Shown here piece after piece: positions 27,810 through 51,474 of a stretch of DNA of 64,000 nt (position 1 is its first letter; every line of letters begins with the position of its first letter). The notes under the pieces are model-generated. The model was not told the origin of the DNA and did not search any database. It worked only from the letters and a program-made list of their open reading frames with translations. Origin of the DNA: Macrocystis pyrifera (taxonomy: Eukaryota; Sar; Phaeophyceae; Laminariales; Laminariaceae); contig JASSKH010000006.1 in NCBI GenBank assembly GCA_031763025.1, positions 5,763,691 to 5,827,690 of the forward strand. Direction: 5' to 3'. The position numbers and the translations under genes are program-made.

Positions 27810-30800
27810 CTTTTAAACATTATAAAAGAGACCAAAAGGTAAATGAACAGCAGGTAACATATATTACATTTTTGATTATGTTACTATTAACTCATCTTTT
27901 AAATTTGGGCAAATGCCAAAACCAGGTATACCTGATCCGTTTGAGCCAAAATCAGGTACATGCTAAAACCAAGTGAAAACGCGCGCCACGAGCGGTGTGA
28001 TGTCCATGACAATCCGGTAAAACCGTATGCGCCTAAAGCGCTAAGCGTGCCACATGGCTTCCAAAATCTGAATATTTTTGTTTTCTTCAGGGTGTAGGTA
28101 CCACGGGCTCCACTTGGACCTGCAGAGAGTCACTATTAATAACATGCTCCGTTTGTTTCGCCACGGCGGAGGCGCCAAGAGTATTTACTCCGGCGCCCCT
28201 CCCCCGTTGACAGCTTTAAAGCTTCCAGCCCGTCCTCGCGGAACCGCCTGCTCGGCACGAAATTAGTTTGCCGTACCAAACCTGAGACCACCTCGACGCG
28301 GGGTGGTGCAGACAAAATGCCGTGTGGCCATGGTGCTGTAAAGACTGCTGTGAACATAGAAAATAACAGAGTACACACAACAACTAATTGAAGCACATCG
28401 CACACCCCAAAGGAAAAAGAGTGAAACCAGCGTTCGCATGAATGCATGAATATACGTACGTTTACTTTTACGTGCGACGTACGCGTACAGAGTTTATACG
28501 TCAATAAAGAAGGATTTCCACCGAGGGAGGGCAGACGCATACGGAGAGAAAACACAGTTAGTGTACGTATGGCCTCTCTGATTGGTTCAAAGTTGGCCAA
28601 AATCAGTTCAAAGCTAGACAGATAGAAAAAGCAGGTATACCTTGGCTTTTTCGAGCCAAAATCGGTTACGATGTCAGCCTGGCCAATAGCAGGGCTCCAG
28701 GGGTGTGTTTTGTACTTATTTTTGGAATGTACCTGGTAACTGATTTAGGCCCAAACGTGGCCAGGCATACCTAATTTGGCTAATTTTTTATATCCCCTTT
28801 TCCACAGGATATACACAAAATATGACCAGGTAAGGATATACATAGGGGGGGGCGTGAACGTGGCTGAGACTCATATACATATACGACATATACATATATC
28901 CCTCAACCTAGAGTAGAATGCAGTAATCGCAGCGTTGCTGCTCCCTGTCTACACTACCACTCTGGGTGCTGGGTAGGGTCACCAATAGAACTAGACGTTA
29001 TGGCCCACCTGCAGACGAATTCAGACTATATTTGTTCTTGATCCGCATGCTAGCACGCTCGTCGCTTGTCTGCTCGTCTATCGCGCGCTGTGCTTGTTGT
29101 ATGCATACCTCATCGCAAATCACATGACGAATGCTCGTTCACCAACGAATGCATGCGTGCCTTTCGACGACCAAACATACTAGACTAGTATACAACATAG
29201 GGGAAAGGTCGCATTGCGCTCACGTCTCTACGGAGGCCGATGCAGTGCAACGCGAGTTGAACATAACCACCATCAAGTGAAACAAGGAAAGCACAAGCTA
29301 AGTGATGTGCGCTAGCCGTCCTATCGATCCCCAGCCCTTGGGTATCGTGGTGAAGTCAGGGTAATCGAAGTGCTCTTGGGGACATCGGAATGTTTGAAAA
29401 AATGGAAATGATGTTCATGCTCTTGAGCCATTTCACATTCGATCTTGGATATTACTTTATCATATACCAGGTACATGTGTACACGTCTTTTTTTTGTTGG
29501 CAACCAGTATTGTTGCCACGATGATTATACTACATCGGAAGTAATAGACCGATCATCGTAAAAAGGTTGTGCATCTCTAGCAAGACACCGACACGACGGA
29601 ACGACGATAAAGTATACACACCCAATGGAAAGTACGAGGTACGATTGACCTTCTTCGATGCCCACGGTTCCGCCATTGCCTGTGTTTCATGCCAACAGAG
29701 CGTTGTGCTCGGGACCAGGTAAAACACTTGAAGGACTGAACACCGAGCATTAAAGGAACGTAGACGAAAACCTGGAGCAGATGGAGAACGCGTACGCAAG
29801 CCCTTGTGGAACACGGGTCACACGTGGTGAAATTGTTTCAGCTGGGCGTGATGATGACCTTGCACACAAGAGAAGGAGGGGTGGCTTGCTGTGTCCGGAG
29901 GGTTGCGGCTGTATGGTAGATATACGATGCAGCCAAGCCTGACCACTACCAAGCTAACAGATATGTAGTGGGTGTAATACAGCTAACAGATATGTAGTGG
30001 GTGTAATACAACCGAGGAATTGTTTTTTTTTTCGCATTGTTCTGATGCTGTGCCCACAGTCGAAAATGCTGATATTTTTATTACTGTAACGTACACCTAA
30101 AGCGAACAAATCGGGGGCGGGGGCTACGTTGCACGTGGCGGGTTGAAGTTATTCAGTCACGGAGGGGGTATTACCACACCACAGGCAATATTTCTCTGGA
30201 TCTTCGGCCTATCTCTCTCGCTTCAGTTGGGGTAGGGCTATTTACCTTTGTCCCGATACATTTATAGTGTAAAGAAAAGATCCATTTGAACAAGTCATCT
30301 TAACCTGTCGAAAAAACACATACCCGGAAGATATATGTATATATGGTATTCGTACTACGAGAACTTCACCTGGTAGGACGTATGGCAAGATCTCTCTGGA
30401 CTTTCGGGCCTATTATTTTCTTTGCGTTTACTATGGTGGAGATATTTACCTTTGTCCCTGCAAATGTGCAGCAGCCTGCACTTTACTACCGCAGCAAAGC
30501 ATCATACCGCTGCCTCCCGGCAAGAAGTATCGCTAAAAAGTCGTTAGGCTGTGGAGTACAGCAAGCAGGCCATTATACGGGTGAAAGTACCTTATGAAAG
30601 TTACGTTGGAACTGATAACTACCAGAGGTAATGACAACTGTTTTATCGTGTTATGGTGTTCTCGTACCCGGTGCGTTGGCATTGAACATGCTTTACCCAT
30701 TAGTCTGCACCTAATTGTTAATAGTATTGTGTCAAATTTAAGAAACCAGAACGGACACCGCCTTGTACTGATGTAGTTGGATTGTAAGGACGGTATGTGA

Positions 30801-31770
30801 AGACAGCACACACATGCTACGATAGTTACAAACCATATTCGAGGGGTCGCGACACAAAGACAGGACAACAAGCGTATACATACGACCGCTTTGCATTATT
30901 CAGGCGTACTGCAAATTATGTTTTCTCTATATTGTTCATATGCGAAGTATCTTCAATATCTTCAGCATGTCGAGGTGCCTCACACAGGCTTAGTTTAGAC
31001 TTGGCAGAACACGCCACATTCTTCTGTACACTATGCTGCCGAGGTAGGCGATAAGATAGCTACCGCTGTGGATGAGCTACGGTACTACTGTAGTTTACAG
31101 TTTATGTTACGGCCGAACATTCGAGCAATCTTTCAAATCTGCCAAAAATGTCAAGGGCGCAGACACACAAAGATTCGATTACCTTTCGGGCCTCGATGCA
31201 TTTACCCTGGATCTGGGTCGTGCTATGAAATACCTGGTAGTCTAGTTGTTTTGATCAAGGTTGACATCGGTTCCTTTTTATTTGATCAACTGACTCCGTC
31301 TACAAATGTACTGTAAATTGTCGATGCTGTTACCAGCGTGGGTCCTGGAACTCAAACCTCACGATTAGTAAGGCAGTGATCTTCGCAATATTTTCGAAGT
31401 GTGGTGGGAGCATAACGCATGCTGGGAGCGCGAGTTGTCAGGGCGTTTTTTCAATGTCTATTCTGGATAATCTTGAACGGTCAATGGACGATTGAAAACC
31501 GAACGTTTACCTCAAGTATACATCCGTAGACGCTCACGGGCAGCACATGGACGGCGAACCTGTTTTGTTTGTTTTGTGCTGCCTAGCCCATATCATGTCC
31601 GGGGGTGGGGCGCGTTTGACGAAAGCAGGGGGGATACGGCAGACAGGATATAGCTAGGTATGATATCGATTAACAGCAGCAGCAGTACAACAGCAGCGTT
31701 CGTATAGTATGTGTGTGCAGTGATCACCAGGTCGAGCAGTCGAGTGATCGGTCTCGTGTGAGGTCCCCTT
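27810..31770. other. No gene recognised
   Basis: AT-rich, with no recognised protein. It holds repeats of GAGCCAAAATC(A/G)GGT(A/T)(A/C) beside AGGTATACCT palindromes at ~27920-27975 and 28590-28670, and TATACATATA-type low complexity at 28875-28905. Confidence 0.45.
29952..30009. repeat. 29-bp tandem duplication
   Basis: Two exact adjacent copies of a 29-base unit that starts AGCTAACAGATATGTAGTGG. Perfect identity suggests a recent slippage or replication event. Confidence 0.9.
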
Positions 31771-32066
31771 ACAATCTGGGAGAAGGGATCTTTAGGTTGG
31801 TAGGTTGTTCAGGTATTTTGGTTCCTGTGGGGACCAAGGTACGCGCGAAGACCCAACCCAACCCCTGACTCAAAACATCACCCTAACCCTAACCCTGACC
31901 GCAAACCGCAGCCAGAACGGGCCAAAACTGGCCATAAACGCGGCTGCGAGGCGTTTCCATCGAACCAGGTAATTTCTCACTTGCGGACGACGATTCCGAA
32001 GTGCAGACCGCGCTACGCAATTTTCAAGTCAAAAACACCCCTAAGGATCCTTTCTCCCAGATTGCT
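31771..32066. mobile_element. MITE-like element with ~26-bp terminal inverted repeats
   Basis: The left end 31771-31796 (CAATCTGGGAGAAGGGATCT core) and the right end 32040-32066 are inverted copies with about three mismatches. They enclose ~240 bases with no coding content. Inside lies CCCTAACCCTAACCCTGA (31881-31898), a telomere-like run. No clear target duplication. Confidence 0.6.
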
Positions 32067-32462
32067 AAACCTACTCTCTCGTGTTCTTTTTTTCGGTGCA
32101 ATAGACTTGGAAACCTACCCGGTCTTGGGCGAGCAGTCAACAATAATCAATCCCGCACGAGCACGAGAATTCCCTCTGCTGAATTTTCTCTGCGTTGAAA
32201 TCTCAATAATTTTGAAATCGCCCGTTTTTTAAATCAACCTCAGCAGCAGCAGATACATCAGCAGCAATACACGTCTGTTGAGCTGTCGAGCGGCATACAT
32301 GTTCCACCTGAGCCCTTTGACGTACACCACACACCTCACACCGAGCACGTACGTGAACACGAAACTGGCCCCCTCGGTCAGTCTACCTCTGCATATACCT
32401 GGCCAATAAAAGCAGTACTGGGTATAGATACCCTCAACCGCATATAATACGTAGCTTGTACG

Positions 32463-33054
32463 ACAAACCCCTGCGCGATGACCATCGACGGCAGCAACTT
32501 CTTTGACAGCGTACGGCTGGACATTATCAACCCGGGCGAGGAGACAAGTAAGAGCTGTGAGGCGCGTACGATACAACGATTTATGTACCATGCGTTGACC
32601 CTATAGGTTATTATCGGTTGCATCAGCCAAGCCAATTCTGCTGTGATTGTGTTTTTAGTTTTGGCATGTTACTGGCTATTATCAGGGAGCCATGCAGCAG
32701 TAGAAAGTTTTGAACTTCAATCACGACGAGCTCAATCCCATTTACGAGCTTTGATACTGACGGACGCAGTTGATGTATGGATGAGCTATTGTGACGGATA
32801 ACTCCACTTCCTCTGCTACAGTATGGCTCGCTGATAATAGCCAGTACTTATGCCAAAAGTAAAGACACGAACACGGCAGCATTGGTATGGCTGATGCAAC
32901 TGATAATAACCTATAGGGTCGAAGCATGGTATATAAATAGTTGTATCGGACGCGCGTCACAGCTCTTACGCGTCTTTCCGCTCGGGTTGATACTGTCCTG
33001 CCGTGCGCTGTCACAGAAGTTGCTGCCATCAATGGTCATCGCGCAGGGGTTTGT
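32463..33054. repeat. Large inverted repeat, ~245-bp arms, ~100-bp spacer
   Basis: Arm 1 (32463-32706) and arm 2 (32808-33054) are reverse complements at roughly 85% by eye. Each arm, read inward from its outer edge, keeps an open frame: arm 1 (+) ..TNPCAMTIDGSNFFDS.. ..YHALTL stop; arm 2 (-) ..TNPCAMTIDGSNFCDS.. ..YHASTL stop. The arm-2 frame starts outside the arm at 33129 with MPNSTMLQKLWEAMDSDGSL. Either a foldback element or an inverted duplication of a small gene fragment. Confidence 0.75.
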
Positions 33055-33129
33055 CGCTAACATCTGCGTTAGTGAGCCATCAGAATCCATAGCTTCCCAC
33101 AGCTTCTGAAGCATTGTGGAGTTCGGCAT
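32911..33129 (-). CDS. Small ORF with MDSDGSL..TNPCAMTIDGSNF
   Basis: A 72-codon frame from MPNSTMLQKLWEAMDSDGSL to a stop at 32911; coordinates are given in reading direction. The segment MD(S/G)xGSLxx(M/L)(L/I)AxN recurs in the open stretch at 36806-37040 (+), reading MDGTGSLLDLIAQN. The two places therefore seem to share a family, and the arm at 32463-32620 holds a third partial copy. Family unknown to me. Confidence 0.35.
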   Translation of the reverse strand: MPNSTMLQKLWEAMDSDGSLTQMLATNPCAMTIDGSNFCDSARQDSINPSGKTRKSCDARPIQLFIYHASTL

Positions 33130-33250
33130 ACATACGTCGTTCTACCATGATCGCGGCGAACTCCAGGGCAAAGACTCTCGCCCGTTTTCCCTCTGACGAG
33201 TCGCCCTTTCGGGCGGGCTTGTCGACATGGCATTACCGCTCTTGTAGTAG

Positions 33251-36200
33251 TCCAGTGTGGAAGAGTACCCTCGTGGCACTTATGGACAGGTGCGGCAGCC
33301 GGCCAGGCCCCTGGGTGATGCAGCTCTTGTCCGACAAGCTAGGATCGCTTTACTGTATTTTCCTATTTTCTTGTCGATGGCTTTCTTGTTGATCGAAGAA
33401 AGCAGCGCGGTGTTCTTGCCGAGGGCGTTGGTTCGAACAACATGCGTGAACCAAATAGACGAGTCTGCCACCATAGTGAACGACACCGCCTCAGGAAGAA
33501 AAAAATCAACCAGCAACGACGTGAGAATCACGTTCAACCAAGAAAAAAACGAGGTAGCGACTTGGTTCATCAAGATGTCTACGTCCATGATGACGAGCTT
33601 TGGCCTCCTGCTGACCAACGGAAGTGCTGCCAGCGAGTCCGTCGGTGTCACAATGAACGTTGCGGGCTCAGAGCCTGAAAGCAGGTATGCCCATGCATGT
33701 GTCGGGCGTCCACAACGATTTTAGGAATCTGGCAAGGTTATTGACCCGGAATCGATGCGGATCCTAACCTTAGGAGCTCCTCTTGACAATAAGGACACAA
33801 GTCTCGGACGTCGACAACGATTGTAGGAATTTGACGTTTTTGTTGACAGGAATACATTTAGCTCGTAAACGTAGGAGCCCACCTCTAGTCCTGAACATAT
33901 GGGCGAAATAATATAACAATGAGACGTTTAAGCCAATAGTGTGTCAGTCTGTTCAAGATATACTTCTCTTTACCAAAGTTAAGTAGTCGCTGGTCACTTT
34001 TAATTTTTGTCAGGCAAAGCAGCGAGAGAGGCTCGGGCGGAGAGTTGAGCGGATCAGATGTTGATGCCGCCGAAGCAACTACAAACGAATTTATGTATGA
34101 CCCTTACACGTTGCGTCGACAAACGTTTATAGAACTTCGACCCCCCGATGTTTAATCGTACTTCAACAGAATGAGCTCTCTATATTGCTTTTATGACAGG
34201 GACAACAGCGGGGACGGCGCTAGCAGACAAGTTTTACCCCAAAACGTCGGGAAGGCGCGCCAAAGGTTTGTGGCCAAATGAGTCCCATAAGTGAGAAACT
34301 ATCAGTGAGGATGAAACTTTTACTCGTGTATTCGCTTTAAGACTAGCGCACACAAGTGTCGGTCGGATGCGCGCGAACGAAATTCTTCAAAGTATTGTAT
34401 CGGGTGAGATATTGAGCTCCTAATGCGAGGAGCCCAGCAACGTCTGGTGCCTTACTATAAACGTGTCGCTCGCAACAGCAATTGCGCAAGTCTCGGACTT
34501 GAACAACGATTTTAGGAGTTTGACATTATTATTGACACGGAATTAAGAGCTCGCCTCACATACTACACATAAACCGTGTAAAGGGGTAATAACATGATGA
34601 GATGTTTAAGCCAACTTGTGTCCGTTTGTTCAACTTAATTCTTTTCTTATATGAGATTCAATAGTCGCTGTTTACTTTTGATTTTCGTCAGGCAAGGCAG
34701 AGAGGGAGGCACGGGCGGAGAGTTGAGCGTATCATATGTCGACGCCGCCAAAACAACTTTAAACGAAAACGTGTATGTCCCTTACATGTTCGTCCGAACG
34801 ACGTTTGCAGAACTTCGACCCCTTGGTGTTTAATCTTGTCAATCTTATCTAAACAAAATGAGATCTCTATGTTGCTTTTATGACAGGGACCACAGCGGCG
34901 ACGCCGCCAGCGAGCAAGTGCTACCCCATGATAATAAGTATGCACATACATACGTCGTGTCGCTCTCAAACATAACGGCAGGAGTCTCGGACACCGACAA
35001 CAATTCGGCTCGTGATATCAGGAGCTTCCCTTGTACTAAAAACACTGCGGGAACCTGCATATGTATTGCTACTTCACGTTTTTCACTTTCAGCGTGTCGA
35101 AAAAGTGTACGTGTGTAGCAGCTAAACTTTGCTGACTTCCTGACATGGGGAGCTCGCAGACGGACCTCGAATAGTGCTTTACTCATGAAATTCGTTCGCC
35201 CTACTCGAACAACGAACAAGAGACTTGTCCATGCGCCTTGGTACTAAGGACGAAGGTACAAGTCACGTGTTTGAACAACATACTAATAATCTGGTCGAAG
35301 GTTTTTTTAAACCGGTCACAAATGTGTCGCCTAAAAGTCTAAACAACTGCCGTGGGATGATGGGGCCGTGTAATTCGTGATTGATATATTGGTTGTTGAC
35401 AGGGGTAGGGGCAGCAACGAGAAGGGCTCGCGAGGACGACATGGAAAGGAAGACGAAAGCTCGCAGAGTTTGAGCAGGTATGCGTCTATTTGCGCTGCGC
35501 CAAATAGTAACATCGTGTAACCAAGCGCTCTATATTATTTTTTCCTCACACTCTGGAAATGCTCCGGACGATAAGATACATCGTACTGATGGGCCAAAAT
35601 GCGGTCCCCACTCGAGCGGCGGGCGATTGAACGAATGCATTCTTGACGCCGTCGGAAATACTTCTGAAGAGGAATATGCTATAATAAGGTGGTTTATTTG
35701 ACAAATGTTTAGCGTAGCATTATCCAAAAATGGATGTTACTGCACAAAGATAAAATATTGAGCTAAAACGTGGCACCGGCGTCCCCGTGTGGCTTGGTAG
35801 GTGGTCCGCGTGCCTATCAAGATTATTTTCGTGGGTTCAAGTCTCACCGAGTGCATGCTCGTAGGGACTTTCCCTTGCGAAAGCGCGAGGACAGAGCGAG
35901 AGCGTAAGTTAGCTAAATTCGATGAAAACCGACGAGCAGTGGGAATGCTGAACCCTATGCGTGACAAACCAAAGGCACGTACCGGGGGGGAGAAGGGACG
36001 ACACTTGTGACCGCGGCTTGTCCAGAAGATCGCCGACAGTAAAACCTCTTACGAGTTAGGCTGGAAACAAAAAGTGATGATGGAAAAAAAAAACTACAGT
36101 GGGAACACGGATTGTATATGCATTACTACCAAGAAAGTATTCCCTGTTTTTTTGTCGTTTGGAAGCAGGGACGAGGCCACGGAAGTGATCCATAAAAGAA

Positions 36201-36277
36201 AGCTTACGTCTAGCGTTCGCGAAGAGTTGTTCTTAGGCGATGGCAATGACGACGTCGCCCCAACTCTTCCCGTTTGA
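33251..36277 (+). CDS. Candidate gene of unknown function with phase-2 exon cassettes
   Basis: Exon-like blocks, all bounded by AG/GT and all ending and starting in phase 2: 33251-33684, 34014-34094, 34200-~34230, 34692-34772, 34887-34937, 35403-35477, 35617-35688 and 36169-36277 (stop). Block 1 has a hydrophobic segment (IALLYFPIFLSMAFLLI) followed by a soluble part ending AGSEPES. Later blocks are short and rich in Ser, Gly, Asp and Glu, e.g. SSERGSGGELSGSDVDAAEA and GRGSNEKGSRG. Donors are mostly GTATGN, and acceptors include TTATGACAG twice. The gene start and the donor of block 3 are unresolved. I recognise no domain. The consistent phase supports real splicing, but chance cannot be excluded without transcripts. 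Confidence 0.42.
33800..34945 (+). repeat. ~685-bp tandem duplication carrying two exon-like blocks
   Basis: 33800-34260 matches 34485-34945 in order: a TCGGAC..CAACGATT.TAGGA.TTTGAC start; the 81-base block at 34014/34692; the CTCTATRTTGCTTTTATGACAGGGAC block at 34200/34887. Partial copies of the start motif lie also at ~33703 and ~34985. Both 81-base blocks stay open and equal in length, although intron sequence between them has diverged clearly. Confidence 0.75.
35770..35860 (+). ncRNA. tRNA-derived SINE-like head
   Basis: GTGTGGCTTGGTAGGTGG (A-box-like, 35788-35805) is followed about 30 bases later by GGGTTCAAGTCTC (B-box-like, 35833-35845). This is the spacing of an internal RNA polymerase III promoter. 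No complete cloverleaf could be drawn, so a SINE or tRNA pseudogene is more likely than a working tRNA. Confidence 0.45.
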
Positions 36278-36805
36278 TTTAAAGACTACCACACCTCCGG
36301 ACGCCATGAAACATCTCTCGATTACGACGAGGGTCCTGAATCGGATGAATCAAGGTATCGATAAAACGTGCATGTACACAGGGCCATACACTCTTCTTGT
36401 GCTGAAAATGTTGTTAATGTTACGCACGGCCCCCGATCCGACACGCCTATATTGCAACACGGCCAAAAGTTCTTTCATCTGCCACGGTAACGGTGTCAAC
36501 ATACTTTCTGAGTTCCTCACTTGAGGAGCTCAACTTTTCTATATGATACCAAATTGTTTAGTAATGGTCGTATTAATATATACAGTACGTATGCTGTAAT
36601 CACTACCATACCACTTGACCGACCGGTAGTTACTCACTTGAGGAGCTCAGCCACTTTCTAACCTAACCCTTGTTGTGCGCGTCTGAACGTGCAGGGAACC
36701 TATCGAGCGCACTATTACCGCGTGCAAACATGACGTAGAAACGGAAGCGAAGGCAGCAGATATCAACAAATTATTCATGAAATGACTGAGCGCTTCGTGC
36801 TTCAG

Positions 36806-37040
36806 GCATCTGTACCTGTCCAGCAACGCTCAGTTGACGACATGCGGACATGACTCCGCGATCGTACCCATGCCGAGCGTCATAGCTGACACCTTCAGTA
36901 GAGGGAACACAACAACCCCAGACGACGTGCGCGATGCAAACAAGGTCAAGTACATGTTCTCGACGATGGATGGCACGGGCTCGTTGTTGGATCTCATCGC
37001 CCAGAACCACGGGACCACCTTGTTCGTTTGGTCTCTTTGA
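36806..37040 (+). CDS. Unidentified open stretch, MDGTGSLLDLIAQN family
   Basis: Open from an acceptor-like TGCTTCAG|G at 36806 to a TGA at 37038-37040, about 78 codons. It includes LYLSSNAQLTTCGHDSAIVP and MFSTMDGTGSLLDLIAQN. The last part resembles the minus-strand ORF at 33129-32911. It might be the terminal exon of the gene at 33.25-36.28 kb or a separate copy of a small family. Another in-frame acceptor lies at 36695. Function unknown. Confidence 0.35.
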
Positions 37041-37229
37041 AATAGTCACGTGCCGGTCGGTACCACTGCCTATAGTGGACCATGTGGCTCTTGACACCTG
37101 AGGCTGTAAGTGGTGACGCACGAGGCTCACTTCTTCTCTGCCCCTACCTTGTGGGAGGCCTGTAATACATGACTTTAAACATCCATCCATAGACTGCCAT
37201 GCAGTCTGGGCTACCGTTGCCTGAGCTTA

Positions 37230-37459
37230 TGGCCTCTGCCAGATGATATCAGCAAGAGGGCTTCCAGCGAGGGACTCCACCAGTCTCGCTGGCCTCGCAC
37301 TCAGTAAGTCTTGTTCTTAGAGCTTGTATTATCACGGAGTGATCCTCATCGGACCACGAGCCAGGTGGCTAGGGGACATCACACAGGATCCCCGGCCACT
37401 GCTCCACTCACACATGCGATTACACTGAAACCTCCACGGCTTGGTATCTTTTGGCTACA
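37230..37459 (-). repeat. Gypsy 3' LTR
   Basis: Second copy of the 230-base LTR. On the minus strand it is preceded by the polypurine-type tract at 37461-37470 (TTTGGGGGTG). Confidence 0.92.
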
Positions 37460-37537
37460 GCACCCCCAAAGCGAGTTCACTCGACACGAACGAGCTTGAC
37501 AAAACCAAAAAACCAAGACGAAATCGCATGCGGCAAA

Positions 37538-40264
37538 TCACAAATCAATGCTGAACTCTGAAGCAATTTTAATCTTGAGCGCACGGGTCATCCGTAATTT
37601 GCGCAATTCCTTCACGACGAATTCAGGCGCAGCAGAATAAATCGACCGCAAAGACTCCCACGTGCGCTCCTCTGCTTCGAAACCATCCCAATCGACCAAG
37701 ACAATCACCTCGTTGGCATCATCTTCGGCCACATGCACCAAAGCATTCATGCGGCATTCACCCTGCGCAAAGGAATGTTGGAAAACATCCTTCAGATCAG
37801 CGGTGACGTTCAACGTCGCATCCGCATAAAATCGTAAACGAGCCACGTGAGCTTGATGCACCTTCCCAGAAACGATGTTCTGAACTGAGTACACATGATC
37901 ATGATCAGCTGCTACCACACGCCACGGACCAGTCCATGTGGACAACAATTTCGGTGTGACACCCTGCCGACGAACACGAGCATACAACACGAAATCACCA
38001 ACCGCAAATTTTGGCAACACCACCTGGCCCTGAGCCTGTTTACGTTTGTTGTCGCGAGACACGGCAACAGCTGCGCGAATATCGGCGCAAAATCTCTCCT
38101 GCTCTGCAACGACTTCACGGACGTTCGCACGCAACAAGTCAGCATTCATCACGTCAACATTCCACCTGCCATCAGACTCAGAAACGAGCGCCGAGAAATC
38201 GGTACGCGGAGCACGCCCAAACATCACGCTGTACGGAGTGCTTCGGTAACGTTCACGAAACGAAGTGTTCAAGGCCCACTGAGCGGCCGGCAAAACATCA
38301 ACCCACTCCGAAACCTGACGACGCTGTTCTGACAGAATGGAACGCAGAGCACGTACCACCTCTTTTACCATGCGTTCACACGTACCGTTCGACCACGGCG
38401 TGTAAGCGACAGCAAAACGATGTTCGATGTGCAACGCGTCGCTCAACAAAGCAAGCACCCTGTTCTTGAAATGCGTGGCGGTATCACTCACCCACACACG
38501 CGGCACCCCCAAAGTCTTACACCAGGCTAGCAAATGCTTCGCTGTGACCTCGGCTGTACAAGCCTCGGCCGGTTCCAACGCCACGTAGTTGGACAAATCA
38601 TCCATGATGACCAAAACATATCGGAAACCATCCTCATCAGGCAGGCCATCGCTACCTTCGGGCCCGCTGTGGCCAACATACAAAAAATCAAAGTGCACCA
38701 CTTCTCCCGGAGCGGTACCATGCACCGTGTCTCCGTAGGGACGAGGAATGAGTGCACCTGCACGCGTGTCTACACAGTGCAAACACTGGCGAACGAATTC
38801 GCGAACCTGAGAATCCATGTGAGGCCAAACACAATATTCCTTCAGGCGAAACAAAGTCGGCGCCACACCACGGTGACCAGCCGAGCGCATGTGCGCGCAC
38901 ACCATCAAACGAGTTTGAAGAGCAAGATCATCCGGCGGAATCCACAAGACGTCACGCACCCCAACACGCACACGAAACAAACCATCATCGGCCAAGGTAG
39001 CTTGACCGAAGGTTGTCGAAAATTCATGAACACCAACGCCGATACGAGCGACAGACCTTTGTTGCGAGGCACGAATCACATCCAATGCGGGAAGCGAATC
39101 GTCAGCATTACATGGGCTGTGCACGGCAACCGAACGAACAGGCACCGTAGGAACTTTGACCCAACGAGACAACAGATCCCCCCAACAGTTTCGATCGCCA
39201 GGGATGTGTTCGATTGCATAGCGGTATTGTCCTAAAACACCCTTCCAATTCTCTAGGCGTTGTGCCATGGTCTTTGTGACCGTCGTGACACACTTCTCCG
39301 GATTGAAAATGTACTGCAAGTTTCGATGATCAGTAAAGATATGAACACCACCCCAAAGCAGGTATTCGAGCCTCCGGAACGTATTAACGATCGCAAAACC
39401 TTCTTTGTCGACAGTCGCCCAGCGCAACTGCGACACCAAACCCCGTGCGGCATTCCACGCCCGCACCCGATCCTCCGTCCACGCGGTATCCTTGATGACA
39501 CGATTGCGCGCCACTCGCTTAGTCCGACGTGTAGCCCCAACAAGGAGCTCCTCCAAAAAATCACGTAACGGTGCTACCGTTTCCGCTAAACGTGGTAACG
39601 ATGTACGCAACCAGTTGACAGCCTGCAAGAATTGCATTAGTTCTCCAGCGTTTTCGGGACGACGCATTTCACTTAAACCTTGCACTCGAGCGGGGTCATG
39701 GGACACGACACCATTGGAATACACCTTACCACACCAGACCAGTTCACGAGAGAAGAAGGTACACTTGTGGGCGGCGACAAACAGTCCAACATTCTCCAGG
39801 CGTTCAAGAATGTCATCAAGCAGCTGCAGAAGAGCTTCTTCGGTGTCTGCGAAAAAGAAAACGTCATCGACCCAAACTTTGCAATCCAAACCACGCAACA
39901 CTTCAGTCATGACACCTTGGAAATAAGAAGTCGCATTCAAAACACCTTGGGGAACACGGGTAGGCGTGAACAAACCGTCGCTTGTCGCCATGGTGAAGAC
40001 GTCTTGCGCCTCCGGAGCCAAAGGCATCTGCCAGTACCCTTGAAGTAGGTCCAGCTTGCCGAAGAAACGCGCCCCCAGCAGATCTCCCATGTCTTCATGG
40101 TTGGGCATGACGCCCGGGGACTTCTCCACCTGTGCGTTCACCGCCGAGTAGTCGCTCACCAAACGGAAAGAGTCCTTCTTGGGCACCGCCATCGCCGGAC
40201 TCGCCCACACCGCCTGGATGTTGTGGTAGACAAAGCCAAAAAAAACACCAAAGCAGCAATGCAC
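37538..40264 (-). CDS. Gypsy pol: RT, RNase H, integrase, chromodomain
   Basis: A 908-codon ORF. Reverse transcriptase: KLDLLQGYWQMPL and the VWVDDVFFFAD catalytic box (~residue 131). RNase H-like segment: VHIFTDHRNLQYIFNP. Integrase: an HHCC zinc-binding region (~residues 455-490), then the DDE core with HFDFLYVGHSG, WVSDTATHF and NGTCERMVKE (~524, 590, 627). Chromodomain-like tail: VDWDGFEAEERTWESL (~855). Chromodomains can steer integration to particular chromatin (family knowledge). Confidence 0.93.
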   Translation of the reverse strand: MHCCFGVFFGFVYHNIQAVWASPAMAVPKKDSFRLVSDYSAVNAQVEKSPGVMPNHEDMGDLLGARFFGKLDLLQGYWQMPLAPEAQDVFTMATSDGLFTPTRVPQGVLNATSYFQGVMTEVLRGLDCKVWVDDVFFFADTEEALLQLLDDILERLENVGLFVAAHKCTFFSRELVWCGKVYSNGVVSHDPARVQGLSEMRRPENAGELMQFLQAVNWLRTSLPRLAETVAPLRDFLEELLVGATRRTKRVARNRVIKDTAWTEDRVRAWNAARGLVSQLRWATVDKEGFAIVNTFRRLEYLLWGGVHIFTDHRNLQYIFNPEKCVTTVTKTMAQRLENWKGVLGQYRYAIEHIPGDRNCWGDLLSRWVKVPTVPVRSVAVHSPCNADDSLPALDVIRASQQRSVARIGVGVHEFSTTFGQATLADDGLFRVRVGVRDVLWIPPDDLALQTRLMVCAHMRSAGHRGVAPTLFRLKEYCVWPHMDSQVREFVRQCLHCVDTRAGALIPRPYGDTVHGTAPGEVVHFDFLYVGHSGPEGSDGLPDEDGFRYVLVIMDDLSNYVALEPAEACTAEVTAKHLLAWCKTLGVPRVWVSDTATHFKNRVLALLSDALHIEHRFAVAYTPWSNGTCERMVKEVVRALRSILSEQRRQVSEWVDVLPAAQWALNTSFRERYRSTPYSVMFGRAPRTDFSALVSESDGRWNVDVMNADLLRANVREVVAEQERFCADIRAAVAVSRDNKRKQAQGQVVLPKFAVGDFVLYARVRRQGVTPKLLSTWTGPWRVVAADHDHVYSVQNIVSGKVHQAHVARLRFYADATLNVTADLKDVFQHSFAQGECRMNALVHVAEDDANEVIVLVDWDGFEAEERTWESLRSIYSAAPEFVVKELRKLRMTRALKIKIASEFSIDL

Positions 40265-42366
40265 TTCGAGAGCCAGTCCCTTTTTGTCGGTTCGTACCGA
40301 CGTGGCGTTGCCTTGACAGGCTTCGCCTGTTGCTTCAGCTGCACTCGCATCGGCTCCACTTGCGCTGGCGGATCACCACACAGCGCACGGCGAAAAGCAC
40401 CCACGCGACGAGCCAAAATTTCGCGCAAACGGGTTGCTCCGCCGACGCTTAATCCACTCTGCTCTGCCTGCTGCATGCTGTCCTCCAACGCCCGTTCTCG
40501 GGCCGTCCGCTCCTCCTCCGGATCCATGAACATGTCTGGCCCCCGGTCGACCAAATGTTCCACCGCCTTGTCCTCCGGAGCATCCACCGTAGCCTCGGTC
40601 TGAAAAGCACGCACGGAAACCGTCACTCTGCGCGCCGCAAGGTAACTCGGAGTCTCCACACCGGTCGATACCGGCACTGCGCGAGGGCGAAGCTTCTCCA
40701 GAGCTTCACGGTAGACGTCGATGCCAAGAGCTTTCATGGTAGCCATGCCAAACAGAACGACGTTATCTGTACCAGGCATGACCGCGAAAGTGATGGGCTC
40801 CAATTTCACCGCTCCCCACGGCGTCCGTACACTCACGGCAATCGGCACCGTTTTGTGCGTGACCATCACTGAAACACCCGTAGCGGTTTTCGCCTGCTGC
40901 GGGCCATTTTCGAACGGAATTTGCAGATCGGCGCCGCCGAAATGCGAAGACAGCTGCTGAAGTAAGCCGACACCGATGGACGTGAGCGCCGACCCCGAAT
41001 CAAGGATCACACGCGCCATCAGCGAACCAACCGACCCTGGCAAAGAGAGATCAGCGCGTAAACACTCAGCGCTGCGATCGACAGGCACTTCACCTGCCGT
41101 TGAACTCTGGTCGGTACCAAGAGTCACCTGACGCCATGGCTGCCCTCCTACAGCCGGCGCCGAAGAAATAGAATCGGCGGTCCACCCCGACCAAGACGTC
41201 GAATATACAGACGGTTCCGGCGCTACCGCCCCTGCAGCAGCACCAGACACTGACTCCGCCCGCTCGGTGGATGGCGAAGTTCTCGCTCCAGCAGCACCCA
41301 CCGATGTTCCAGCTCCTCCAACGTATACAGCTCGGCCGGCAACAGACGAACCAGATCCCGACCCAGCGGCTCCTGCCGCTGGCGCACCAGAAGTTGAAGA
41401 AGCAACAGCAGAAGTTCCACCGCCCGCTGTCAATTGATTGCCACCACGGCCACCGCGCCCGCGTCCATGGTTGAATCTGCCCCGGCCGCCATTGCGGCCC
41501 CCGCGATACCCTGACGACCCGCGCCCACCACTGCTGGGAGCTGTGCCGCCACCGCGAGCTTTTGGGCAATCAGAAACATAATGGTTGGGATCACCACACT
41601 CGAAACAGACGCGAACAAACGACTTTTTCGCGGACTGCTGCTGTTTCGGTTTCTGCTGCTGTTGGCGTCGCGGTTCAGCTGCCCCTGCAGCATCTTTCCG
41701 ACCATACGCCTCGATGAATTTCCACTGTTCTGCAGCAGAAAAAATTTGGTCCATGACCAATGCCGGGTCCTTCTTCCACCCTGCAGCGTACGTTAGCTGA
41801 CCTTTTACGTACTTTTTGAACTCGGACGGCCATAAGCCATCCACCAACGCCATGCTCACAAATTCCGCCGGTCCGGGCAACCACGAACGGTCCTGCGCGC
41901 GGTACATGGCATGCACCGCGTGATTCTCCGCAAAATACTTTTCCATAGCGGAGTTTACCATCATCGCGCGGTCTTTGACGGATGTTTCACCGCCCTGCTT
42001 TTCATCGCGCCTCATTGAGAGAACGCGACGCAAGTCCGCTGCCGCCCGCGAGGTGTCAAATCTGTTGCTGGTGGTTGTGTAACCAGCGTGCTGCCTAACA
42101 GCGTCCAACAACTCCGAGGCGGTCATCGTAGTCTGATGCTTGTAAAATCCCTCAAAACACCGATGAATGTAATTGGGGATAAGCTGGCCCATGCTCACTT
42201 TGGAGTGCTGAACCACCCCCTGAGCGTTGGCGAGCTGCAGCCGTTCCTCATAATCGAGGTACGCTGCGTAAAAAACACGAGAGGCCTGCTCGGTCCACAC
42301 CTCTCCGTATTTCGGTGGAGTCAGAGACTCCCCTACCACCAGCGGCGTGCTTGCCGTGTGCGCCAT
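40156..42366 (-). CDS. Gypsy gag-protease
   Basis: A 736-codon ORF. A capsid-like N-terminal half is followed by a Gln/Lys-rich stretch, a CCHC zinc knuckle (CFECGDPNHYVSDC, residues ~254-267), a long Gly/Arg/Ser/Ala linker, and an aspartic protease with VILDSGSALTSIG (residues ~453-465). These are the particle-forming and processing parts of the retrotransposon. The ORF overlaps the next one by about 109 bases in another frame, as in Gypsy elements known to use recoding. Confidence 0.9.
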   Translation of the reverse strand: MAHTASTPLVVGESLTPPKYGEVWTEQASRVFYAAYLDYEERLQLANAQGVVQHSKVSMGQLIPNYIHRCFEGFYKHQTTMTASELLDAVRQHAGYTTTSNRFDTSRAAADLRRVLSMRRDEKQGGETSVKDRAMMVNSAMEKYFAENHAVHAMYRAQDRSWLPGPAEFVSMALVDGLWPSEFKKYVKGQLTYAAGWKKDPALVMDQIFSAAEQWKFIEAYGRKDAAGAAEPRRQQQQKPKQQQSAKKSFVRVCFECGDPNHYVSDCPKARGGGTAPSSGGRGSSGYRGGRNGGRGRFNHGRGRGGRGGNQLTAGGGTSAVASSTSGAPAAGAAGSGSGSSVAGRAVYVGGAGTSVGAAGARTSPSTERAESVSGAAAGAVAPEPSVYSTSWSGWTADSISSAPAVGGQPWRQVTLGTDQSSTAGEVPVDRSAECLRADLSLPGSVGSLMARVILDSGSALTSIGVGLLQQLSSHFGGADLQIPFENGPQQAKTATGVSVMVTHKTVPIAVSVRTPWGAVKLEPITFAVMPGTDNVVLFGMATMKALGIDVYREALEKLRPRAVPVSTGVETPSYLAARRVTVSVRAFQTEATVDAPEDKAVEHLVDRGPDMFMDPEEERTARERALEDSMQQAEQSGLSVGGATRLREILARRVGAFRRALCGDPPAQVEPMRVQLKQQAKPVKATPRRYEPTKRDWLSKCIAALVFFLALSTTTSRRCGRVRRWRCPRRTLSVW

Positions 42367-42575
42367 AATCCACAGCAGTCCACCTGGACTCTACTGTAAT
42401 AACGGAGAAACTGCCGCCTGACCTGTGCGTCCTCCAGCTCCCGGAGCGTCCTCCCCTGCTGTGCGCTTCAAGCCGTTTCGATCCGTCCAACGGGCCAACT
42501 GCCTTCCCAGCTGTGACCCAATACTCCGCAGCCGAAAACTCCTCCAACAGAAGTTCCGCGAATATCTAGATATTA

Positions 42576-42805
42576 TGGCCTCTGCCAGATGATATCAGCA
42601 AGAGGGCTTCCAGCGAGGGACTCCACCAGTCTCGCTGGCCTCGCACTCAGTAAGTCTTGTTCTTAGAGCTTGTATTATCACGGAGTGATCCTCATCGGAC
42701 CACGAGCCAGGTGGCTAGGGGACATCACACAGGATCCCCGGCCACTGCTCCACTCACACATGCGATTACACTGAAACCTCCACGGCTTGGTATCTTTTGG
42801 CTACA
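42576..42805 (-). repeat. Gypsy 5' LTR
   Basis: 230 bases, starting TGTAGCCAAAAGATACC on the minus strand. Same sequence as the copy at 37230-37459. The ORF translated through both copies is an LTR by-product. Confidence 0.92.
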
Positions 42806-43400
42806 GGCTACAAATATTTTAGAATGGCGTGCTGGTATACAGCCTCATGGGGGATGTCATTTGAGACCTTCGGACTCATGAAGAATTTTACACATTTATG
42901 AAATACGCCAAATGTGAGTTCGACCGATTAAGTAGTTCATACTTAAGTTTGGAAGCTGCGTTATACGTATTGGAACAGGGTTTTGTTTTGGAGCAGCTGC
43001 TTCAATTGCGCCGCTTTTGGAGAAGCAGCCTCGAACACTCAACGCCAGAGGAGTCCGATGGGAAGCAAAATTTCATCACTGGTACAGCAGGGAGGGATGC
43101 TATACCACTACCGTCGGAGCTCTTCGATGGTGGATGCGAGAGCCGGGTGGAGTGTCCCGAAGACGATGCCGTGGAGACGTCGTCGCAGCTACTCCTGCTG
43201 TAAAGTTGCAGTAGTAGCCAAGCCCTACGGCGGAAGCAGAACCGTAGGCAGGGAGCAGCAGCAGGTACTGTTCTATGTATGGTGGGAGTTTAACCATAAT
43301 CGCCGTGTGAAGCGGATAGGGGGATAGCGTACAGCATCAACAGCTGAAATCCCTATGGCAGGAGTACAGCCGTGGGCACCCTCGCCTTTCGTACTGGATG
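42806..43400. other. Between the Gypsy element and the 37-bp repeat
   Basis: Short overlapping ORFs only. No domain recognised. Confidence 0.4.
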
Positions 43401-43670: not shown

Positions 43671-44907
43671 AGCAGATATGGACATCGCCACGCGAGGAAC
43701 ATCCTGCTCAATTCGCGAGAAGCCGCACAGCCGCCATGCTGTGCGCACCCCACCACAGGGGAGTGGAGAAGCCGCGTGACGTACTATTAAAAGTCGCGTG
43801 CCTTCTACTGCGAGAAGTTTAGTGGCGAAGGAGGGCGCATGGAAATCTGGTGCTGTATGCAGCAGAACTAAAAACGAAAGGAATAGCGTCTGAACGGCAA
43901 CAACTACTTCATGATAGCAGCAGCAGCGGGAAGGTCGTGAAGCGGACAGACAGGTATTTCGTCAGCTGGAGTTTTTGAGTGATCTGGCTACTTCGCGGGC
44001 GAGACCTTATGTCTAGTCTTTCTGGTGGGCATTCGTAAGAGTAGTTTTCTCTTGCGGTAGGATACACCTGGCGGTCGAAATACGTTTTCGATCGTACAAA
44101 TGAAAAAAATGTCATTTTCGACTGGGTTTGAATTCGTTCCGTGCGAGTCGTATATGATAGATGCCGTCTGCGACGTGTTAGGGATAACTAAATGATATGC
44201 TAGTCATCGTTCTTCCGAGGAAAGTAGTAGACGACAGATAGGAGATGTGTCGTTCGTCACTGGTTACGGATGACACGGAATATACCTGGTATTATTTTTC
44301 CCGGGAATGTCGTGAATGGTACGAAGGTGGGATATCGTCTGAAGGTTCGTCCTGGACGGTACGCATAGCCTTTGGTTTCAGCCTGGTAGTTTGGGAATGT
44401 ATATTCACGCTCTGATCAAACAGTCTTTGTACTTCCGAAAAACGTATGCCTGGGAGTGTTTTTCTGGTATAGACAGGACCAGAAGGAGACCGGTGGAACC
44501 TATACTTATTGTTGTAACGGACGGGCGAAGTGAGTTTACGTGGGTGCACCTTGAGAGGTGTACTGCTCATATAAGGTGTTGGTGGTGACTTCATGCTGAT
44601 TTTACCACCAGTAGTGGTGTGCGGACTTGGATTGTTCGGGAAGGAGAGAAATGGAATATTTGACGTTCTGCGGATGATCGAATAGCTTTTTTCAGCTGGG
44701 AGGGCTTAGGCTGTTCGTGTTGAAAGTTGCAGCATTTTAGGGTTTCTTTATTCGGTTATTAGGAGCTAGTGTGCAAAAGCAAAAAAAAATAGCATTTTCG
44801 GTTTCAACGTTTATCAAAAGCGACTTTTATTTCGGGTACTTTTAGCGTCGGAATAAAAATTATGTGAAAAAGGATGTATGCTATCTCGCGTTTACCGATA
44901 CGATCTG
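43671..44907. other. No gene recognised
   Basis: AT-rich toward the Copia LTR. No domain or RNA recognised on either strand. Confidence 0.45.
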
Positions 44908-45345
44908 TGTTATGGAAATGTTAGCACATAGCTAGAACCCCTAGCATCAGTCAATGCTCAGTAGCACTGCTCTTGTATAATATCGTAGATCTCATATGTA
45001 TGTGTCTGTTCGAATGTAACGTATGTATATGCGGAGGAACTACTTCCGTACAATATTCTGCTTGGTAGCCAAGTAGATCACTCTCTCGTGTCTCTCTCGT
45101 GTGGATCGTAGCTGTCCTGGTCATCTCTGGGAAGCAGCCATCGTCTCGGCTCCTGCATACTCTGTGGTTTATATCTCTGTGTGTTGGCCATCTAATCGCA
45201 AGTGTTACAGTCTCTACATCTTATTCAAACTGTGGAAGGACTCTCTTCTTTCAGGTTTCACTCTCAGACGTGTCATCACCTGGACTAAAGTCGACGACAC
45301 AGCCTCTCAGCCACTGTGCCAGGGTATATCGCAATATCCATAATC
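44908..45345 (+). repeat. Copia 5' LTR
   Basis: Starts TGTTATGGAAATGTTAGCAC and ends near TATCCATAA. About 435 bases. Aligns along its length with 51475-51908. Confidence 0.88.
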
Positions 45346-46216
45346 GTTTTATGAGCCCCGAGAGTCTGTCTAAGTGAAGGCCTGCGGCGACTGCGACTTC
45401 TGCTATCGTCGAGTGCTGTGGAACACACACGTCTTTCAGAAAATATTTTCCGTGGGGAGCTACTGCTGCAAGAGCCAGTGTTCTGCTGGAGGCCACACTG
45501 AGTCAACCCTCTTGCGTATTGGGCCCGGACTGATCACCTGGGCTCTCGGCTGCACTTTCGGTACGCAACTGTTTGTGTAAAGCATTCGGCAGCGTCATTT
45601 CTAGGCGTTGACTTCGGTTGGCGAATAGGGTTGTGTGGGTTGTTGGTTCTGTACGCGCGGAGTGCCTCCTCGGTGCCCTGTGTGTCTTTAGCTGACTACT
45701 GAAATCGCCTGCGCGTGGTATTTTCGCGGGGCGTAGTCTGTGTTAGACATCTTGCACGTGCTGAGTTGCCGGCTTGGTAGCGTGTGTGGGTTGAGGATAC
45801 GACTGACAGCTGGTAGCCGTACCGCTACTACAGCTACGCACACATGATCGACGCACTTGAATTTACCTGCGCGAAGTATACCCGAAGTAGGTCTGTTCAA
45901 GAAATCTTCCGCGTACTGATTGTTTTGATCGGTACGTGCGTAGGCTGAGGATCTGACCAGGCCTGTTTGCATCCGTGCAGCAGACACAAGTGTACGCTGA
46001 AAGACGCGTAGCAAGTCTAAGCAGTACATCTGACCCGTGTGCCTGCAGGATGAGGCCGGAGGTAGCACCTCCGTCGCTGCAATACCGCAGTCTAGCCATC
46101 TGCGGTAATATATAACTGTGCTCGGAAGGAGCGCAGTGTTCCGGACGGACGCAGGATTGCTTCCGCCGGACGTGGGTTGTAAGCTACGGAGCTTCGTGTG
46201 CACCCTGGCTTCAGCA

Positions 46217-47564
46217 ATGGCGGAACAATCGGGCTCCGGGCTCCACCGCATGCTGGACTCCATTGGAAAAAGCTCGGGACATTCGGGTTGTCGCGAATGG
46301 AAGACCAAGCTTCGACAAGCAATCATTCTCCATGCGTCAGACCTTCTTCCCGTCCTCGACGGGAAGGAGCGCCCATCGGCAACCGCACCGAACGAGGACT
46401 CTGTGACCGCGTGAGGCAAGGTTAACAGTCGCCTATACTCCGTCCTCTTCTTTGTGATCTGAGGCAAGGTTAACAGTCGCCTATACTCCGTCCTCTTCTT
46501 TGTGATCTCCGGTTCAGCACAGCTAACCGTTCGTACTCACGAAGGGACGGGGGCCTGTGCTGTGGGGGATGGGGCAGCGGCTTGGAAAGCCCTAAACAAG
46601 CGTTTCGACGCTCAAACTCAGGAAGCTCGGCGTGCGTCACACACCGAGCTTTTCAACTTGAGACACCTTGCTGGAGGTGATCCCATAGACTTCTTCACGA
46701 AGGGTTGGGATCTCCAACTTTGCCTGAAGGTGCTGGGGAAGGCAGTTTCTGACGCGGTACACCTAGACATAATGCTGTCGGGCCTGTCCAAAACCCCAGA
46801 GTTCAAATTCATCCAGGAGATGCGCTACCGGGATGAGTTTATTTCTGTGGACCACCTCCAAGAGACGGCGAACCGCTTTTATGTAGACCAGCAGTCGCGC
46901 AGCGCGTCGGGGCCCGTGGTCTCCGGCCGGGGGGCCGCGATGGCGGTTGCGTCCCACACCGACCAGTGCCACCGGTATAAGGCATACGGGCACTTCCAGC
47001 GCGACTGCCCCCAATTTGCCAAGAAGTCACCATCAAAGCAAGGGAAGCCAAAGGGGAGGAAGCCCAAGCGAAGCAGAGGTGGTGGGGGGGAGTAACCAGC
47101 CGAAGTGGTGCTCCTATCACAAAACCAAGACGCACAGCGATGCTGAGTGTCAGAAACAACGGGAGCTGCAAGAGCATAAGCAGAAGGAGCTCCAAGGTTT
47201 GGCTGCGAACCTGGCACTGCTGCAGTCAGCAGGCAACTTCGCCAACATCGGGGGCGCGCGCATGACAAACTCGTCTCCAACTGTGGCACAACCGGCCCAG
47301 TCCGAGCCGACCACGTTTGGATTCTCCTTTAGCGCCCTCGGCGCTTCTTTGGCAGAGGCCGCCTCGTCGCCTGCCGTTCGCCAGCAACTCCCGGCGGCGT
47401 CTGCTGCCGAACCGGAGTCACCTACGCAGGACCACCACATACCTCCAGGGTTCTTTGGTGCGTTTATGGCGACCCCTGGAGGGTTGCCGTCAGCTCCAGT
47501 TTCGCTCCGACGGAACATTCCTCCCTATGTTTGGTGGGCAGTGGAGCGACCGACAATTGCCTAG
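46217..47564 (+). pseudogene. Copia gag region
   Basis: Contains a Copia-type gag start (REWKTKLRQAI.., ~46295), the UBN2-like core (ALNKRFDAQTQEA, ELFNLRHLAGGDPIDFF, LSGLSKTPEFKF), a zinc-knuckle-like segment near 46965-47010 and a second cysteine/histidine cluster (WCSYHKTKTHSDAEC, ~47103). A fossil copy of the particle protein gene. Confidence 0.82.
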
Positions 47565-47579
47565 ACCCTGCGCTTACAC

Positions 47580-49745
47580 CAGGATTGCGGGCTCACATGC
47601 GTGATATCGAAGACCTTCGGGTCCCACTCACGATAGTCGCCGCCGGCTAGCATCTCCTGAAAGTCGTTACTACGGGGACGATCGTAGCTGCCGTCACAGA
47701 CGACAGTGGGAATGACCGGCAAGTTTCCTTTTGCGCCGTTATGGTACCGGAGCTGGGCACCAACCTTTTCTCCGTGACCGCAGCGATTTTGAAGGGGGTG
47801 GCAACGTTGTTTCATCCTACCAACCCCAGGTTGGAGTCGGAGGGCGTGGTTATCCCGATGCAGACCCTCTGGGTGGACGACACAACAGGAAAAACCATGT
47901 GCTCCATCGAGATGAAGCTTGGGGGTGCCGCTCGGCGCCAGATGATCCTCGGGGACAATTCTGACGGGCTTGCGTTAAACGTGGAGTCCGCTGATCGCTG
48001 GCACCGACTCATGGGGCATATTGACAGCAAGAGCTTGGACGTCCTGAAAAAGGCGCCCGACAACGGCGTCGACTACACCGGTGAGGTTACGGGTTGTGGT
48101 GCCTGCCCGCTCGGTAAGAGCACACAACAACCTCATCCTAAGCAAGCTTCATATGGTTTTTTACACCCTTTTCGGCATGTTTAAGTAGACACTCTTGGCC
48201 CCTTTACGCCTTCAGCGTTGGGAGGTTTCAAGTACGCCACCAAGTTCGTTGACCAGCAGACCAAGTGGAAGGAGATCGTTCTTATGAAGGACAAGACCTG
48301 TTCCGTGGACTCCCTTGCGGTTTTCAACAAAGGGACTGTGATTCTTACTGGCGAGCGCATCCACTGCCTCCGTGGGGATCAAGGTACAGCAATTGACGAG
48401 TACGGAATCCTGTCAGTACTGTCAAGACGTCGGCATCAAGCTGGAGTTCGCCTCTCCGAACACCCCTCAGCAAATCGGTGCGAACGAGTGTGCGGGCCGA
48501 ACGATCGTGAACTTCGTACGCTGCCTGCTAGCTGACTCGACTCTACCGAACTTCCTTTTCGGAGAGTTAATGCAGACAGCTGTTTATTTGAGCAACCAGA
48601 CTCCTCACGCAGCCCTGCAAACCGGGACGCCGTACAAGGCGCTCTACGGCAAAGATGCCTACCTTGGGCACCTCCGGGTGATTCGGTCTAGAGCGTTCGT
48701 GCACATCGAGACCTACACCAAGAAGATGGAGCATCGTGCTTGGGAAGGACGGCTTGTCGGATACAGCATGGACAGAAAGCCGTACCGGGTCGACAACTCT
48801 GAGACGAGACGTGTACGGGAGAGTCAAAATATTGTGTTTATTGATACTCCTTCCGTAGTGCCTTCGTCGGATGAGGGTGGTTTCGACGACGGGGAGTTCA
48901 CGTACGACGACCACGACGACATGGTGAGAGATGTGCGAAACCATGCATTCAATCATTCAGTTGATTCGCTCTCTCCTGATCATGCCATTGGGAATCCGCC
49001 TGTGACTGAACTCCTCGAGAATATTCGTGAAACAACTACTCGTGACCTGAGGCTGTGTCCTGCCGAATCTCCTCCTGCTGACGGTGGGCCTGGATGTTCC
49101 GGTGGTAAACCTGAGGGAGATAACCGAGCATCGCCTGGAGGAGTCAGTCCCCCTGAGCTGGGCGGAGGTGCGTCTCCTCCTGTTACATCACCAAGTCCAA
49201 ATCCTGCGACGCCGCTTGCTTCATCATCGCCTTCTGGTCCTGCTCCGTCTGGTGCTGCAACGCAAGATGGCTCTGTACGTGGGCGTGGTTCGTCTCGTGG
49301 TAGCCGAAGTGCGCGCGGTGACTCTTCGCGTGGTAGATCTGCGCGGGGAGGCATCACGTCTAGCGGCTCGGCAGGTGGGCGTGGTTCCCGTGGTGGACGA
49401 GGTTCCATGTCGACATGTGCAGGAACCAGGTCGACTACGAACATCCCTAATACCAAGACCGTCCGCGAGCTCACTCGCATCTCATACGCATTCACCGCGC
49501 AAGGGGAGTTTCCTGACGTCGCCCTTAGGGATGGCTCCTTCGGTTTCACGGAATATGCGTATTCTGTGGGGACATCTGAACCAGGTGTTCCACGGACGAT
49601 CCAAGAAGCACGGGCCAGTCCGGATGGTGCGCAAACGATGGTAGCTGCTGAACGCGAGATAACGAGTCTTAACGAACGAATAGTCTACAAGCTCGTCCCG
49701 CGTACGGCAGTTCCCCCTGAGAAAAAGCGGTTTAAGTCCCAGTGA
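47580..49745 (+). pseudogene. Copia protease-integrase region
   Basis: Pre-integrase zinc region (RWHRLMGHIDSKSLDVLKK with CGACPLGK, ~47998-48110), integrase core pieces (~48200-48640, e.g. GANECAGRTIVNFV and AVYLSNQTPHAAL), then a variable Ser/Gly/Arg-rich linker with SRGSRSARG repeats (~49270-49420). The family order places the reverse transcriptase next. Fossil. Confidence 0.82.
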
Positions 49746-51172: not shown

Positions 51173-51474
51173 TTGTGTTATATGTTTGTGTGTTTGCTTT
51201 ATATATATGTTCTGTTTGTGTGAATCAGCTTACTTTTTCAGTCGACGGTATTCGGTCTCACACCATCACTGGTTGAAAGAGCCATGTAGGATTGAAAGGT
51301 ATGGTAGCTTGATTTGTGCAAGAAACAATAGCAGGTAGTTATTTTACAAGCGCATGAATGTATTGTAGCACGTATAAAACAGGAAACAATTTAACTTGCA
51401 CATGTAACGAATACGTGCTTGATTTAATCATCATTAATTTGGTACAATTCAGAGCAACTTTCATTGAGGGGGAG

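Follow-up and report, generated by a model that had tools for sequence, protein, structure and literature searches.

In the 64,000-nucleotide stretch of Macrocystis pyrifera DNA analysed here (the window), a run of exon-like blocks probably stems from a giant kelp gene of several exons and unnamed family, here in a decaying copy that bears what would be an old, exon-containing tandem duplication. The sequence pattern is consistent with two paralogues, one in the window and one on contig C222, which are ~20% diverged from each other and would go back to an ancestor with at least five exons (exon 0, exon 1, an 81-bp exon, a 186-bp exon and a last exon), the first two joined by a phase-1 intron and all later ones in phase 2. 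On the window side, tandem duplication would have affected a segment of ~444 bp that comprises the 81-bp exon and the beginning of the block after it, an inverted duplication would have taken the place of the 3' part of the first intron, LTR elements and dispersed repeats would have entered, and two in-frame stops would have arisen. The exons would once have been translated as one protein, and the window copy would no longer be functional; the homology between the copies, the pattern of insertions and deletions (indels), the stops and the rearrangements are observed directly. Features of the locus are listed in Table 1.

Table 1. Blocks, putative exons and repeats of the locus, in window positions
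Feature	Position	Strand	Remarks
Putative exon 0, missed in the initial annotation	32461–32547	+	Homologous to the C222 copy (L026:5546–5629) and to the minus arm of the palindrome (33056–32970)
Inverted duplication (palindrome)	32461–33056, up to 33088	both	Exon 0 and intron sequence; arms ~295 bp
Block 1	33251–33684	+	End in phase 2
Upstream open frame	33251–33476	+	Hydrophobic stretch 33338–33394; no homology to C222
Putative exon 1 proper	33477–33684	+	Acceptor AG 33475–33476, donor GT 33685
Tandem duplication, unit 1	33798–34241	+	Matches unit 2, 34487–34928
Internal block, 81 bp (putative exon 2a)	34014–34094	+	AG/GT; phase 2–2; 0 gaps against C222 and against 2b
Internal block 3a, 66 bp	34200–34265	+	AG/GT; donor within dispersed repeat
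Dispersed repeat	34259–34450		39 of the 42 listed matches fall on this part of the query
Internal block, 81 bp (putative exon 2b)	34692–34772	+	AG/GT; phase 2; tandem copy of 2a, from alignment to 2a and C222
Internal block 3b, 51 bp	34887–34937	+	Acceptor homologous to 3a, donor not
Internal block, 75 bp	35403–35477	+	AG/GT; phase 2
Dispersed repeat, ~320 bp, SINE-like	35776–36093		Genome matches
Last block, 109 bp in the initial annotation	36169–36277	+	Ends at TGA
Putative 186-bp exon	36169–36354	+	Last block up to the conserved donor; phase 2–2; 0 gaps in 185 aligned bp against C222
Putative next (last) exon, missed in the initial annotation	36695–37021	+	Phase-2 entry; 63% amino acid identity to C222; single 12-bp indel

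The second genomic copy and the exon structure

Genome searches at the DNA and protein levels against the 223-contig assembly (537,376,219 bases) yielded, among the matches listed, one further copy of the locus (C222:12,906,514–12,909,233), which is ~80% identical to the window. The window segments aligned to it are 32461–32777, 33472–33776, 33998–34145 (or 34676–34822 in unit 2 of the tandem duplication), 35511–35777 and 36148–37021. The C222 copy contains one 81-bp exon only, and blocks 3a and 3b are without a counterpart in the alignment to this locus. The 75-bp block straddles a breakpoint near 35426: its first 24 bases belong to a segment that is inverted in C222, and the rest has no C222 match. 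A candidate third copy on C127 (E 0.448) was rejected; it displays no DNA similarity and its adjoining exons read like an unrelated gene.

Indels were counted in MAFFT alignments of the two copies, with exon limits at 32448–32546, 33477–33684, 34014–34094, 36169–36353 and 36695–37021, those of exon 0, the 186-bp exon and the last exon having been set after the C222 copy was seen. Over 872 bp of exon there are two indels, one of 3 bp and one of 12 bp, and hence none that shifts the frame. The 1,028 bp of non-exon sequence have 13, and in just one of these is the length divisible by 3 (Fisher P 0.016; Poisson P 0.0012). Of the six segments with a C222 alignment, five enter the count, with unit 2, the comparison of the two units and that of the palindrome arms kept outside the pool. 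Unit 2 aligns to C222 without gaps in either 81 exon or 78 non-exon columns, whereas between the two units and between the palindrome arms there are 0 and 0 gaps in exons against 5 and 2 outside them. When only the parts marked in the initial annotation are considered (exon 1, exon 2a and the last block to 36277), no indels are found in 398 aligned bp, against 5.0 expected from the non-exon rate (P 0.0065). All eight splice dinucleotides common with C222 are intact. Given the indel deficit and the retained splice dinucleotides, exon 1, the 81-bp exon, the last block and two stretches overlooked initially were probably once exons, in which the frame was kept and amino acids were nearly free to change. 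In substitution, exons are no more conserved than introns (identity to C222 of 0.810 in exons and 0.815 outside them). The proposal that all seven blocks are exons can thus be upheld in part: a portion of the first block, 34014–34094 and the last block are exon-like in comparison with C222, and 34692–34772 is a tandem duplicate, but the blocks of 66, 51 and 75 bp have no like counterpart there.

The donor GT of exon 0, at 32548, is in phase 1 and gives an in-frame junction to exon 1; the same donor, GTAAGAGC, is read in the window, in C222 and in the minus arm of the palindrome. The upstream part of exon 0 has apparently been lost, and at either border, 32461 and 37021, homology between the copies seems to stop within an exon. 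Exon 1 aligns to C222 without gaps over 208 bp (identity 0.812; 68% at the amino acid level). Since homology to C222 begins at 33472, exon 1 is confined to about the limits given in Table 1; the hydrophobic stretch, which is the membrane segment of the initial annotation, falls outside it, and the open frame upstream is probably not an exon.

The 186-bp exon, read in its phase-2 frame, is interrupted by TGA (36275–36277) in the window and by TAA, at another codon, in C222; the exon-like last block carries an in-frame stop in both copies. The last exon contains one TGA in the window, and its C222 counterpart is open for 133 codons. Both copies also have an open frame that starts at ATG 36240 (window 36240–36354, L026:7331–7445), with dN/dS of 0.37 over 37 codons (P 0.039, one of many tests). 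It leaves in phase 1, and this conflicts with the open frame of the next exon, which needs phase-2 entry. Either the 186-bp exon has a second start or each copy lost the phase-2 frame on its own.

The tandem duplication and selection on the protein

The tandem repeat of ~685 bp noted in the initial annotation is real, its two units being 73.8% identical over 461 columns at a spacing of ~689. Within it, the 81 bp of exons 2a and 2b align without gaps, as against five gaps in the 303 aligned bases around them, and the splice dinucleotides are common to 2a, 2b and the C222 exon. Blocks 3a and 3b have in common the acceptor and 42 aligned bases and differ in their donors. The claim that the blocks following the 81-bp pair were duplicated with it is therefore correct for the homologous acceptor but not for the donor, which in 3a lies within a dispersed repeat.

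Comparison of synonymous and nonsynonymous change between the two 81-base blocks, proposed as a check in the initial annotation, revealed no constraint: in the phase-2 frame 15 of 78 bases differ (Sd 3.0, Nd 12.0) and dN/dS is 1.22 (P 0.84). Measured against the C222 81-bp exon, dN/dS is 0.66 for 2a and 1.88 for 2b. Pooling exons 0, 1, 2a and the last exon resulted in dN/dS of 0.66 (219 codons, P 0.041, with the little power that two copies afford), which rises to 0.80 (P 0.22) upon addition of the 186-bp exon in its phase-2 frame; dN/dS is 1.78 for the latter by itself and 0.99 when it is combined with exons 1 and 2a.

Duplicated pseudogenes with internal tandem duplication are a known general kind. 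The locus is similar to them in its two old copies, its stops, its weakened splice signal and its transposon-rich surroundings. In contrast to them, it still has a lower rate of indels in its exons than in its introns, and the decay may for this reason be recent or partial. Disabling lesions of the window copy comprise TGA in two exons, the weakened acceptor and the shortened exon 0, as judged against a C222 copy that itself has one stop and is thus no proven working reference.

The locus could alternatively be a live gene that evolves fast and acquires modules through duplication of symmetric phase-2 exons, with its tail under weak or diversifying selection. The shared downstream exons, which enter and leave in phase 2, the 81-bp exon duplicated in tandem without gaps and the indels kept in frame are all in line with this possibility, as is the phase-2 exon shuffling known in brown algae (PMC11378527). 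However, in-frame stops in both copies, the weakened acceptor of exon 1, the shortened exon 0, the unconstrained 81-bp pair and the three of seven blocks without a like counterpart in C222 render it unlikely. What stands of the initial view of one gene expanding by exon duplication is the exon-bearing tandem duplication itself, albeit as an old event in what is probably a decaying gene copy, with stops and no constraint on the 81-bp pair.

Chance blocks, codon usage and known families

The seven phase-2 blocks of the initial annotation are all present, and the five internal ones are without exception bounded by AG/GT, a multiple of 3 in length and open with phase-2 entry and exit. Nevertheless, the plain parse is no longer than that of shuffled DNA. 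Between 33600 and 36400, the longest phase-2 chain of plain AG/GT blocks is 14, compared with 13.85 ± 1.50 in 200 dinucleotide shuffles, and the chains in phases 0 and 1 (15 and 14, respectively) are no shorter. When a pyrimidine-rich acceptor and a donor consensus are demanded, the phase-2 chain is 4, a value attained by 1% of shuffles; across 44 tiles of the window (both strands, locus included) the strict phase-2 chain has a mean of 1.86 and a maximum of 4, and strict chains in phases 0 and 1 reach up to 5. The chain of four consists of 34014–34094, 34692–34772, 34887–34937 and 36060–36113, two of which are the duplicated 81-bp block, and the last of which lies mostly within a dispersed repeat. 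Phase-consistent AG/GT blocks evidently arise readily by chance, and it is the second genomic copy that sorts real exons from chance ones.

For codon usage, a score was trained on 27 of 30 HSP70 loci (2,895 codons; three were left out for stops). The window and C222 copies of exon 1, at 0.021 and 0.078, both exceed the 95th percentile (−0.065) for random pieces of 60 codons free of stops. For the last exon the corresponding values are −0.009 and −0.084, and its other frames give −0.37 to −0.59. Exons 2a (−0.326) and 2b (−0.199) are in the random range for 25 codons (mean −0.420, sd 0.243), and the C222 81-bp exon, at 0.081, is outside it. Blocks 3a (−0.067), 3b (−0.028) and the 75-bp block (−0.018) fall under the 25-codon 95th percentile of 0.016, and the open frame upstream of exon 1 (−0.235) is in the random range (mean −0.386, sd 0.184). 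Pieces of HSP70, which is strongly expressed, have a mean of 0.494, far above the exons of the locus.

No match above the cut-off was obtained in Pfam/NCBIfam for the translations scanned, which took in joined exon 1/2a/3a and the last two exons, and none up to E 1 in PDB for the C222 translations. A link of the last exon to periplasmic binding proteins was considered and rejected: the matches of the C222 copy to PF13458 (E 0.026 and 0.024) were below the cut-off, the window copy instead gave DUF4787 (E 0.11), also below it, and the one match listed in a genome search for PF13458 lay on another contig (E 0.654), with none above the cut-off. Neither C222 exon 1 nor the last exon has a relative in IMG/VR, and a viral origin was set aside. 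RNA families were absent from 30000–38000.

It is against this background that the absence of any gene has to be weighed; the blocks would then be AG/GT pairs and open frames that line up by chance in a non-coding segment present in duplicate. Shuffled DNA does yield equally long chains, substitution is equal in blocks and introns, and the translations tried matched nothing above the cut-off in Pfam/NCBIfam or up to E 1 in PDB. Such a reading is rather improbable, however, in view of the exon indel deficit with both exon indels multiples of 3, the eight of eight splice dinucleotides kept, the codon scores of exon 1 in the window as well as in C222 and the 133-codon open frame of C222, with its 63% amino acid identity to the window.

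According to PMC11378527, brown algal ROCO genes undergo duplication and shuffling of phase-2 LRR exons, each of which is 72 bp long and codes for a single LRR of 23 residues within a gene for a ROC-COR GTPase; for Ectocarpus, the paper refers to Zambounis 2012. The locus is like such exons in its brown algal host, its short serial exons of symmetric phase 2 (five of five internal blocks) and its tandem exon duplication. Unlike them, its blocks measure 81, 66, 81, 51 and 75 bp, and no LRR (LxxLxxLxxLxLxxNxL) was found by Pfam in joined exon 1/2a/3a and the last two exons or by eye in 2b, 3b and the 75-bp block. A match to LRR_3 below the cut-off (E 0.2) covers 12 residues of the palindrome minus arm, outside the blocks. 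No ROC-COR domain is present in the exons scanned, which are part of the gene. The locus resembles the phase-2 LRR exons of ROCO genes in style and is not a member of them. It is not named in those parts of the literature on brown algal exon shuffling, pseudogenes or the giant kelp genome that a narrow search brought up. That it is a live orphan kelp gene, with a tail diversified by tandem duplication of non-LRR symmetric phase-2 exons, is very doubtful; were it true, brown algal exon shuffling would reach beyond LRR and TPR receptors, to exons that bear almost any amino acid change but not frameshifts. Should other kelps have a live homologue, it would be an instance in brown algae of duplicated phase-2 exons that are not of the LRR type.

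Rearrangements and mobile elements

The arms of the palindrome are 79.3% identical. At 79%, the arms have diverged about as far as the two gene copies have, and the palindrome perhaps dates from roughly the same time as these. The 383 bp after 33088 had no other match among those listed in the genome search. C222 intron bases 5871–5918, which include a pyrimidine tract, have no counterpart before exon 1 of the window, and their place is occupied by the upstream frame with its hydrophobic stretch; the pyrimidine content of the exon 1 acceptor is 0.50 in the window versus 0.80 in C222. Further downstream, the copies differ by an inversion, window 34259–34544 and 35327–35426 matching the minus strand of C222.

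The dispersed repeat that begins within block 3a has at least 38 other copies at 83–86% identity and one in C222 at 76%, with 40 of 524 candidates scored; within the window, a copy is located at 53223–53413. For the second dispersed repeat, at least 46 other matches were found at 84–89% identity, including pieces that belong to a single copy, after scoring of 40 among 3699 candidates. The sequence GGTTCAAGTC near 35836 resembles a tRNA-type B box and suggests that this repeat may be a SINE. No tRNAs were detected by ARAGORN in the 64-kb window.

Two LTR elements follow the locus. The first, at 37227–42806 on the minus strand, is probably a recent insertion; its end repeats (37227–37460 and 42573–42806, 234 bp) are 100% identical, and it contains two long open frames of 944 and 744 aa that by eye are retroelement-like. 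The repeats of the second (44907–51905) are 86% identical, and the open frames inside it look copia-like by eye. Tandem units of ~140 bp, together with adjoining sequence, are found in the right flanks of both copies (window 51922–52677 and L026:8568–9753), and once the LTR elements are left out the duplicated segment may extend to these units. Further along the window, at 56419–57471, there are tandem arrays built on GGGGATCCCC-type palindromes, with periods of 20, 40 and 246 among others.
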